This document shows, one piece after another, positions 22,871-59,073 of a DNA stretch of 64,000 nt (its first letter is position 1; each line of letters opens with the position of its first letter). The DNA lies in assembly GCA_017539165.1 (NCBI GenBank), contig JAFYHN010000025.1:1-64000 (forward strand). Reading direction: 5' to 3'. Both the position numbers and the translations under genes were made by a program. The notes below the pieces were generated by a model, which worked only from the letters and a program-made list of their open reading frames with translations, was not told where the DNA came from and made no database searches. The DNA is from Eubacterium sp. GTDB taxonomy: Bacteria > Bacillota > Clostridia > Lachnospirales > Lachnospiraceae.

Positions 22871-22942
22871 ATTAGCAGTATATGAGATATAACCTGCGAA
22901 GCAGGTGACTCAAAAATCACGATTAATTGAGTTACTGCTAAT
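22871..22942 (+). other. Four-way-junction repeat element, short copy (family copy C)
   Basis: Closing stem ATTAGCAGTA/TACTGCTAAT (22871-22880 with 22933-22942), a minimal hairpin (22881-22891), the hairpin ACCTGC-GAA-GCAGGT (22892-22906), and stem ACTCAA/TTGAGT (22908-22913 with 22927-22932) whose loop contains CACGATTAA. The helices abut with almost no unpaired bases. It shares fold and core motifs with 29566-29782 and 58894-59073. It lies between the DUF4342 gene and the response regulator, 29 bases before the latter's start. Confidence 0.7.
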
Positions 22943-28146: not shown

Positions 28147-29559
28147 ATGTTTAAGAGTGATACAATCTGCGCTATAGCTACCGGACTGGGTAAGTCTGCT
28201 ATCGGAATGATAAGAGTCAGCGGACCGGATGCTATCAATATATGTGATGGAATCTTCGAGGGAAAGAAGAAGCTCACCGATATGGATTCTTTTACTGCGG
28301 CATTTGGCCGTATAGTCGACAGAAATCCAGCGAACGGTGAATGCGATATTCTCGACGAAGCGATTGTTCTTGTCATGAAAGCGCCGCACACATATACTAC
28401 AGAGAATACGGTTGAGATCGATCTTCATGGTGGTACCCTTGTTATAAGGAAGGTTCTGGAACTTCTTGTTAAGTCGGGGGTGCGTGTGGCAGAGCCGGGT
28501 GAATTCACTAAGAGGGCATTTCTCGGTGGCAGGATTGATATGACCGAGGCAGAAGCGGTTATGGATGTGATAAATGCCGAAACCGACAGAGCGCTTAAGA
28601 CTTCGGTTAATCAGCTGACAGGAAAGCTCAGAGAGGAGATAGCGGCTATAAGAGAAAAGATTCTCTACCACACGGCGTATATCGAGTCTGCGCTGGATGA
28701 TCCAGAGAATTACAGTCTGGATGGATTCGGTGAGAAACTGTCAGATGAGATAAATGATATATTAAGTAGAATAGACCGCCTTGTGTCTACTGCGGACGAA
28801 GGAAGACTGATAAGGGAAGGAATAAGGACTGCTATTGTCGGAAGACCGAATGTAGGAAAGTCATCCATCCTTAATCTTCTTCTTGGAGAGGACAGGGCGA
28901 TTGTAACAGATATAGAAGGAACGACTAGAGATACACTTGAGGAGTATGTAAATGTAGATGGCATACTTCTGAAGCTTATTGATACGGCAGGAATTCGTGA
29001 TACGGCTGATGTAGTTGAGAGGATAGGTGTTGATAAAGCCAGAAGCAGTATGGAAGATGCTGATCTGGTCATGCTTATACTTGATGGCTCACATGAACCG
29101 ACCGAATCAGATATGCAGCTTCTGGATGAAGTGTCTGGAAGAAATGCTATCTATATAATAAATAAGACAGATAAAGATATCGTCTTTACCGGAGAGATGC
29201 TTAGGAGTCTTCTGAAGAACAAGAATCCGGAGATAGACAACTTCAGAATTGTAGAACTTTCGGCTAAGACATCTGCCGGGCTTGAGAATCTGAGAGATAT
29301 GATATCAGACATGTTCTTCCATGAGGAACTGGATTATAATGATCAGTTGTATATTACCAAGGCTCGTCATAAGTCATCACTTATCGAGGCAGAGAAAAGT
29401 CTGAAACGTGTAATTGAAAGTATTGAAGAAGGCTTAGGCGAAGACTTCTATACTATAGATCTGATGGCTGCATACGAATCACTAGGCGAGATCATCGGTG
29501 AGACGCTAGAAGACGACCTGGCTGATAAGATATTCAGTGAATTCTGCATGGGAAAATAG
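28147..29559 (+). CDS. mnmE: tRNA modification GTPase MnmE (TrmE)
   Basis: A 470-residue GTPase acting with MnmG to make 5-carboxymethylaminomethyl-type uridine at the wobble position of tRNAs. The N-terminal folate-binding domain starts FKSDTICAIATGLGKSAIGM, a standard family opening that confirms ATG 28147. The G domain has GRPNVGKSS, TRDTLEE, DTAGI and NKTD, and the protein ends CMGK, close to the usual C(I/L)GK. No ordinary SD is present; the start is preceded by the hairpin described at 28116. mnmG follows after structured element A, as in the usual mnmE-mnmG order. Confidence 0.96.
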   Translation: MFKSDTICAIATGLGKSAIGMIRVSGPDAINICDGIFEGKKKLTDMDSFTAAFGRIVDRNPANGECDILDEAIVLVMKAPHTYTTENTVEIDLHGGTLVIRKVLELLVKSGVRVAEPGEFTKRAFLGGRIDMTEAEAVMDVINAETDRALKTSVNQLTGKLREEIAAIREKILYHTAYIESALDDPENYSLDGFGEKLSDEINDILSRIDRLVSTADEGRLIREGIRTAIVGRPNVGKSSILNLLLGEDRAIVTDIEGTTRDTLEEYVNVDGILLKLIDTAGIRDTADVVERIGVDKARSSMEDADLVMLILDGSHEPTESDMQLLDEVSGRNAIYIINKTDKDIVFTGEMLRSLLKNKNPEIDNFRIVELSAKTSAGLENLRDMISDMFFHEELDYNDQLYITKARHKSSLIEAEKSLKRVIESIEEGLGEDFYTIDLMAAYESLGEIIGETLEDDLADKIFSEFCMGK

Positions 29560-29565
29560 TGTTAC

Positions 29566-29782
29566 TATTCATAGCATCCACGTTAAAAACAAAAAAACTT
29601 TGCTTGCAAAACGTTTTTTTGTTTTTAACGTGGATAGCCTGCGAAGCAGGAACCTTAAACTCCATGATTTAGTGCTGCGTTAGCAGCAGTAGAGCATCGC
29701 ATGAAGATTTGTATAAGCTTGCTTAATACAAATTGTCATGCGAGTGCGGACTCAAGAATGGGGTTTAAGGTTGCTATGAATA
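29566..29782 (+). other. Four-way-junction repeat element, long copy (family copy A)
   Basis: Closing stem TATTCATAGCA/TGCTATGAATA (29566-29576 with 29772-29782). Inside: a perfect 22-bp hairpin (29577-29598 with 29613-29634) capped TTTG-CTTG-CAAA; hairpin CCTGC-GAA-GCAGG (29638-29650); and an 11- to 14-bp stem starting at 29652 pairing with 29760-29771, which encloses GATTTAGTGCTGCG, a GCTGC-GTTA-GCAGC hairpin and another long hairpin with a CTTG cap. It begins six bases after the mnmE stop and ends 19 bases before mnmG. It is not a simple terminator. Confidence 0.8.
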
Positions 29783-58788: not shown

Positions 58789-58893
58789 TTTAACCCTCCT
58801 AATATGTAACAAACTGTATTACAGTTTAATTCTTTTTTTCGGTTAATGCTTCTTATCTTTTGTTATGGGTAATATCATTTTTTGTCGTATGAG

Positions 58894-59073
58894 TTGCTAT
58901 TCACAGTCACATGATATAAGTAATTGGAAAATGCTGCTTGCAAGCATTTTCCAATTACTTATATCATGTGACCTGCGTAGCAGGAACTTAAAATACACGA
59001 TTCAGTGCTGCGAAGCAACGGTAGAACCTTAAGGTGGACTTAAGAGTGTATTTTAAGTTACTGTGAATAGTAA
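58894..59073 (+). other. Four-way-junction repeat element (family copy B)
   Basis: Closing stem of 11-14 bp (58894-58907 with 59060-59073; one G-T wobble). A perfect 29-bp hairpin (58907-58935 with 58943-58971) capped by G-CTTG-C. Hairpin CCTGC-GTA-GCAGG (58972-58984). A perfect 14-bp stem (58985-58998 with 59046-59059) enclosing GATTCAGTGCTGCG and a GTAGA ... GGACTTAAGA region. The four helices abut with no unpaired base. It lies between the divergent aldo/keto reductase and rRNA methyltransferase genes; the region from 58789 to 59164 holds no gene. Confidence 0.85.

Follow-up and report, generated by a model that had tools for sequence, protein, structure and literature searches.

The 64,000-nucleotide window analysed here, from Eubacterium sp. 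(Lachnospiraceae), raises the question of what three short, strongly folded intergenic elements are, and whether they represent a structured RNA, a mobile DNA, or both. Re-reading of the sequences confirmed the original description of the three plus-strand copies, at 22871-22942, 29566-29782 and 58894-59073 (copies 1, 2 and 3), all of which have the order closing stem, first hairpin (H1), CCTGCGNAGCAGG hairpin (H2) and second stem (S2). Folded as single-stranded DNA, copies 1, 2 and 3 reach z-scores of -7.0, -13.5 and -15.7, respectively, and for each of them 0 of 200 shuffles was as stable as the real sequence. None contains an open reading frame of at least 80 aa. The original prediction was right in that the second stem is present in all three copies, but it missed that in copies 2 and 3 this stem holds extra hairpins, H3 and H4, in a three-way junction, and it placed the outer ends a few bases too far inside; the real ends are at GTTAC (29561) and GTTGC (58893). 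H1 of both longer copies is capped by GCTTGC; the interior of copy 1 consists of a 3-bp H1, H2 at 22892-22906 and a short S2, and both of its canonical tips are lost (Table 1). Copies 1 and 2 begin directly after the stop codon of the upstream plus-strand gene (the left repeat of copy 2 lies 1 base from the TAG stop of mnmE, whose reading frame ends at 29559); copy 3 is not behind a stop codon, its upstream neighbour being on the minus strand.

Table 1. Features of the three copies, in window positions.
Feature	Positions	Strand	Remarks
Copy 1, short degenerate member	22871..22942	+	closing stem 22871-22880/22933-22942
Copy 2, left terminal inverted repeat GTTACTATTCATAGC, with left arm of closing stem	29561..29575	+	end set by comparison with target-duplicated copies
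Copy 2, H1, hypervariable palindrome, GCTTGC cap	29576..29635	+	
Copy 2, H2, CCTGCGAAGCAGG, GNA triloop	29638..29650	+	
Copy 2, S2 with inner three-way junction	29651..29772	+	H3 near 29674-29687 (GNNA loop), H4 29697-29743 (GCTTGC cap)
Copy 2, closing-stem right arm GCTATGAATA: right terminal repeat without GTAAC tip	29773..29782	+	
Copy 3, left terminal inverted repeat GTTGCTATTCACAGT	58893..58907	+	
Copy 3, H1, ~28 perfect pairs, GCTTGC in loop	58908..58970	+	
Copy 3, H2, CCTGCGTAGCAGG	58972..58984	+	
Copy 3, S2, short H4 form	58985..59059	+	
Copy 3, right terminal inverted repeat ACTGTGAATAGTAA	59060..59073	+	

The window's 3.2-Mb genome contains 13 occurrences of CCTGCGNAGCAGG and none of its reversed control. 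For the short core, a covariance model (R1, built from 40 sequences, the copy at 58894 among them) scores the window copies at 52.5 bits (58972), 37.6 bits (29638) and 29.1 bits (22893), the last corresponding to E 5.9e-6 for 473 kb. The search bore out the predicted dispersal: at E<=0.01, R1 has matches in 51 of the 61 genus genomes, 35 in the richest and 21 in the window's own, and at E<=1e-4 it matches 38 of 297 genomes from other Lachnospiraceae genera, many of them weakly. The wider run including the window's own genome gave 39 of 299, with none in G015, a member of the window's genus. The per-genome counts are rough, because only 65 candidates (in the genus) or 13 (in other genera) were scored in each genome, and other CCTGCGAAGCAGG hairpins are present among the weak matches around E 0.01. 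Among the matches listed, copies with a parsed fold come from named Lachnospiraceae, including AC2029 and UBA3801, and from one MAG labelled "Eubacteriales". Carriage by phages was rejected: seven stretches of viral contigs match the two-hairpin pattern and 0 of the 7 parse as the fold.

A structural parser reduced 380 relaxed H2 hits, in which overlapping loci are counted repeatedly, to 73 four-way structures. Six of these (L015, L136, L217, L235, L237 and L255) were dropped by eye as not belonging to the family, leaving 67 elements, mostly of 160-240 bp. Sixty-one are non-redundant, the copies being still partly non-independent (e.g. L028 and L037 represent the same site), and alignments A1 (40 sequences) and A2 (16) omit five of the 61 that are very short or tandem (L001, L073, L183, L212 and L230). 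Tandem matches of the right half (H2, S2 and right terminal repeat), spaced by ~116-130 bp, occur at G011:C32:33710-34198, in G006, G034 and G053, and in L073 and L230. The genus also possesses other multi-hairpin intergenic repeats made of C(GNA)G hairpins (e.g. GAACGAAGTGAAGGATG) in a different order (L282, L284, L036 and L113), two of which occupy the same mnmE-mnmG gap as copy 2.

The nature of the closing stem is revealed by recent copies from other Lachnospiraceae genera, which have the ends GTTAC(T/G)ATTCAC.../...GTGAAT(A/C)GTAAC and 8-bp target-site duplications outside them. We took 20 loci with near-equal scores from three genomes of three other genera (G202, G315 and G357); both ends were located by the script in 14, for which the 8 bases beyond GTTAC...GTAAC on either side were compared, keeping the best of 10 end offsets. 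The flanks agreed at 8/8 positions in seven loci, 7/8 in four, 6/8 in two and 3/8 in one, while among 182 left/right cross-pairs scored alike 8/8 was never reached, 7/8 twice and 6/8 eight times. The locus with 3/8 (L448) has instead, by eye, a 10-bp repeat, GAACAATTCG; of the six unscored loci, L452 (7 of 8) and L445 (7 bases) look duplicated by eye, and the others do not or are cut. Thus, the closing stem consists of terminal inverted repeats. The compensatory changes on which the original prediction was based do exist (13 of 18 predicted pairs show two-sided changes), but the compensating closing stems are the ends of a transposon; the prediction had also raised the possibility of a "mobile hairpin family". 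An origin of the closing stem from a pre-existing terminator hairpin was rejected, as by eye no T-run follows the right ends of the parsed elements.

The copies in the window show no target duplication readable by eye. Almost all of the 67 parsed copies belong to the genus; a strict pattern for the canonical tips finds both tips in seven of the 67, the left alone in 19, the right alone in four and neither in 37. There are also short forms: L500 comprises only the ends and H1, L497-L499 only the ends and 20-30 bp, and forms of 53 bp exist; L500 and L498 have clear flanking near-repeats by eye. One genome (G299, 2.8 Mb) contains 261 exact copies of the 14-bp end, several of them near contig ends, which represents a very large expansion.

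A candidate for the source of transposase is L491 (G127:C9), a complete insertion sequence of 1.75 kb encoding a 447-aa DDE transposase that matches NCBIfam IS4 with 168 bits (cut-off 115). It carries GTTACTATTCACAGTCCAATGTCATTTAGTT at both ends, is flanked by AAAATTCG and AAAATTTG, and has 14-15 bp of its end in common with the MITE. Its terminal repeat reads GTTACTATTCACAG-T-CCAATGTCATTTAG, and a contig of G299 (L492) reads GTTACTATTCACAG-CCAATGTCATTTA, with the junction as in L491; the 422 bp of this contig have no match to the L491 transposase. From these two sequences, L491 and the one G299 fragment, on which the link between transposase and MITE rests, an L491-type element of the IS4 family is the probable mobiliser. 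That L491 is an insertion sequence nested inside a MITE is less likely, its inner flanks being inverted, not direct, repeats. Target duplications in the IS4 family are usually longer than 8 bp (10-13 bp), with 7-8 bp in some subgroups. Within the genus, relatives of the L491 transposase occur in five of 61 genomes at 33-42% identity; the five corresponding loci start at CAATGTCATT without the GTTACTATTCAC tip, and L508, L509, L512 and L514 (not L507) have direct repeats of 9-10 bp and are inserted in palindromes (a terminator-like hairpin; GGGGACGGTTC repeats). No inverted pair of ends 1-2.5 kb apart, as expected of an autonomous partner, was found among 54 exact end sites in 13 genomes of the genus. 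The copies in the window look stranded, because their genome has no match to the IS4-type transposase of L491 at E<=1e-20.

Mobility leaves the question whether the fold itself matters. In the 61 non-redundant elements, folding of the plus strand with DNA parameters yields 50 G-T against 8 A-C oppositions (counting those flanked by Watson-Crick pairs), and folding of the minus strand of the same elements yields 12 against 32; with RNA parameters the ratios are 65:8 and 22:38, respectively. Element by element, G-T exceeds A-C on the plus strand in 29 cases and falls below it in three, in varied contexts. Such unequal counts speak against a function as double-stranded DNA, because this would predict equality. 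Orientation is biased too: 31 of 52 classified loci run with both neighbours and eight against both (p 0.0003; 54 loci were listed, of which two without a neighbouring reading frame were left uncounted, and 17 of the 52 overlap reading frames of at least 90 aa that are partly spurious). In raw counts, 47 of the 67 elements have an upstream co-directional stop codon in the range searched, and in 35 of these the stem starts between -16 and +7 of it; other upstream neighbours are a tRNA gene (L013), the SRP RNA gene (L063) and, by eye, the end of a tRNA (L028/L037). The G-T excess, the orientation and the placement behind stop codons fit a constraint on one strand, most simply as RNA.

These observations have to be weighed against a purely neutral MITE, in which the interior is unselected, template-switch repair keeps the palindromes matched, strand-biased mutation during transcription or replication gives rise to G-T, and the placement merely reflects the least harmful insertions. 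We take this to be a serious possibility, albeit one that we would bet against. Terminal repeats and target duplications suffice to account for the spread, the sequence of H1 is almost free to vary, and the forms with only the ends and H1, like those of 53 bp, do exist. The summed covariation cells comprise 156 two-sided, six one-sided and 40 broken or gapped ones, as expected from arm-to-arm copying, and G-T makes up 1.6% of the pairs in the elements versus 5.8% of the stem pairs in 33 tRNAs, two counts not made alike, the tRNAs having been counted less strictly. GNA loops are unusually stable in DNA, and the 273 hairpin loops of the 67 elements include 151 of the type C(GNA)G, 58 G(CTTG)C and no TTCG, one GNA per element following from the construction of the search. 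Loop types, low G-T share and two-sided covariation are compatible with single-stranded DNA or with arm-to-arm copying, and leave both open. What argues against neutrality is the one-strand ratio of G-T over A-C of ~6:1, as mutation bias usually gives less than that (strand-asymmetric mutation could contribute part of the excess), together with the unpaired motifs CATGA/GAATG, GTAGAG and GGA, which recur in many copies of the A+T-richer group, and the orthologous copies L177/L214/L040 and L011/L248, which by eye retain the fold via paired changes. We prefer, with a probability of roughly 0.8 for the explanation as a whole, to regard the elements in the window as degenerate copies of a MITE with a likely IS4-type source of transposase and a stable interior fold, whose mismatch pattern suggests that one strand is still constrained.

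The copies had been noted to lie just upstream of genes, as a gene-associated leader RNA would, but such a leader is not supported. We inspected by eye the mnmE-mnmG gap in 30 genomes of the genus (of 61 matched) and found the element complete in three (the window's own genome, G044 and G052), as a remnant in three (G019, G028 and G029) and unrecognisable in 24, of which two have another upstream gene and some hold other repeats. The element is no leader of mnmG. In G044 the flanks GGAAAATA and GGAATATA suggest a duplication that would span the mnmE stop codon. In the same copy (L261) ~18 nt of the 5' arm of H1 (AAGAAAAATATCAAAAGA) recur just beyond the right end, before mnmG, perhaps by a template switch or partial copying; none of the 69 elements tested has a comparable match. 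Copying of H1 from the flanks as a rule was rejected, since the longest H1-flank matches of these 69 elements (L261 not among them, and L015, L136, L235 and L237 dropped) resemble those of 205 control cross-pairs.

A structured regulatory RNA, acting in trans or in cis and not transposable, could claim the strand-specific pattern, the orientation bias, the missing Rfam match of the window copies and a sub-threshold resemblance to Clostridiales-1 RNA, described below, in its favour, yet it is very improbable, being largely refuted by the terminal repeats with their 8-bp duplications and opposed by the presence or absence of the element at the mnmE-mnmG site and by the large number of copies per genome, spread over many gene contexts. 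Movement as single-stranded DNA, with a Y1/HUH transposase of the IS200/IS605 or REP-RAYT type, which would suit the C(GNA)G and G(CTTG)C loops and the TTAC at the left end, as in the IS608 target, deserves next to no credence and was rejected on co-occurrence and target duplications: Y1_Tnp (PF01797), found in 36 of 61 genomes of the genus, is absent from the window's genome and from G016, G034, G008 and G019, the latter four with many copies, whereas G001 and G027 possess it yet have no R1 match, and relatives of the family show target duplications, which IS200/IS605 insertions do not leave.

The resemblance to Clostridiales-1 (RF01699) qualifies the claim that the family corresponds to no named RNA. 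The window copies indeed remain without an Rfam match up to E<=5, but of 13 element loci six score 33-42 bits against RF01699, whose gathering cut-off is 48 bits, and the other seven have no match at E<=1. In the alignments of four loci, the second and third arms contain gaps and non-standard pairs, and reciprocally R1 finds only two hits in 40 RF01699 loci (E 0.07 and 0.44), both off the element. The two families share a closing stem, a GCTTGC-capped H1, a stem with CATGAG/CGAATG and a GAG-GNA-CGGA hairpin; both are multicopy in the window's genus, often situated just after stop codons and carried by a mobile unit. RF01699, however, has the order closing stem, GCTTGC hairpin, ATGAG stem and GGGAG-hairpin-GGA stem, without a constant CCTGCGNAGCAGG arm before the second stem, whereas in the window family H2 precedes S2. 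Homology of the two interiors is suggested by the RF01699 hits and the CATGAG/CGAATG motif, but R1 does not confirm it, and we have not adopted it. The table entry for Clostridiales-1 in Weinberg 2010 (PMC2864571) reads "RNA? y, cis-reg n, switch n", with Clostridiales and human gut as its distribution.

In the genus RF01699 is found in 49 of 61 genomes (in 46 above the cut-off), with 25 matches in G029; a co-directional stop codon lies in range of 26 out of 40 loci, and 13 of the matches begin between -8 and +5 relative to it. Nine of 20 recent copies from G029 and G056 (L340-L345, L352, L354 and L355) show one bounded unit of 203-204 bp, which starts with ATGACATAAG, holds the Clostridiales-1 motif and ends with CCCACATC; several near-identical copies exist in G056, and the other 11 copies have a different right side, some with a tandem copy. 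A 5-bp AT-rich direct repeat flanks the unit at 5/5 positions in six of the nine, compared with four of 72 control pairs, the remaining units showing 6/6 (L355), 4/5 (L354) and 3/5 (L344). The right end of the unit is identical to GATGTGGGTGTCAAAAG, which is the terminal repeat of an element of 1.87 kb in G056; this element encodes a transposase resembling IS1182, whose 116 bits fall short of the family cut-off (270). Thus, in at least two genomes of the genus, Clostridiales-1 is the interior of a mobile unit, distinguished by its terminal repeats and 5-bp duplications from the window family, whose relatives have 8-bp ones. The open-licence literature searched contained no published link between Clostridiales-1 and transposons.

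Among known repeats, the window family is closest in character to those bacterial MITEs whose transcripts fold (ERIC/RU-1, NEMIS/Correia, RUP, CIR and YPAL), being likewise short, non-coding, intergenic and folded; the available text of a review (PMC2229807) describes these as mostly having terminal repeats and target duplications, along with folds in their transcripts. The ends and the 8-bp duplication of the window family differ from those of the TA-ended families that dominate this text (PMC2229807). It is also set apart from MITEs of the ERIC/NEMIS type by the combination of a four-way and a three-way junction, by the hypervariable H1 and by its Lachnospiraceae hosts. It resembles BOX of pneumococcus, a modular intergenic repeat with a tandemly repeated part, which here corresponds to H2, S2 and the right end; to our knowledge, the BOX sequence is unrelated. 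REP/BIME elements with RAYT transposases are intergenic palindromes close behind stop codons as well; unlike them, the family has terminal repeats and target duplications, and the window's genome lacks a Y1 transposase.

Returning to the MITE with a probable IS4-type partner, its history can be envisaged as follows. The termini GTTACTATTCACRG.../...CYGTGAATAGTAAC are what had been read as the compensating closing stem; a DDE transposase would have cut at these ends, and insertion would have duplicated 8 bp of the target. The transposase was likely supplied by an insertion sequence of the IS4 family whose ends share these 14-15 bp, and we infer that a transposase of the L491 type moves the MITE and that the copies in the window moved likewise. 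The insertions that survive would mostly be those directly after stop codons and oriented with transcription, so placed that the fold would come to lie towards the 3' end of a co-transcribed mRNA and, by analogy with ERIC or NEMIS, would most likely act, if at all, by changing transcript stability or processing.

The family in the window is real, well spread and mostly explained: it is a MITE with an unusually elaborate fold and a strand-specific signature. What is new is the family as such, together with its probable IS4-type partner, its location behind stop codons and the finding that Clostridiales-1 has a mobile context. A bolder idea, which we consider unlikely but worth stating, is that Clostridiales-1 and the window family belong to a single class of folded cargo, carried by unrelated DNA transposons (IS1182-like with 5-bp and IS4-like with 8-bp duplications), that settles behind stop codons and in which the fold of one strand is selected; if true, transposons would be spreading the fold as a 3'-end RNA (or single-stranded DNA) module that does a real job for the element or its host. 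More generally, strong covariation can arise from transposon ends and palindromes, which is a trap for searches for new RNA families, and whether bacterial MITEs carry selected RNA can be addressed by measuring orthologous copies, orientation and strand-specific mismatch counts across many genomes.
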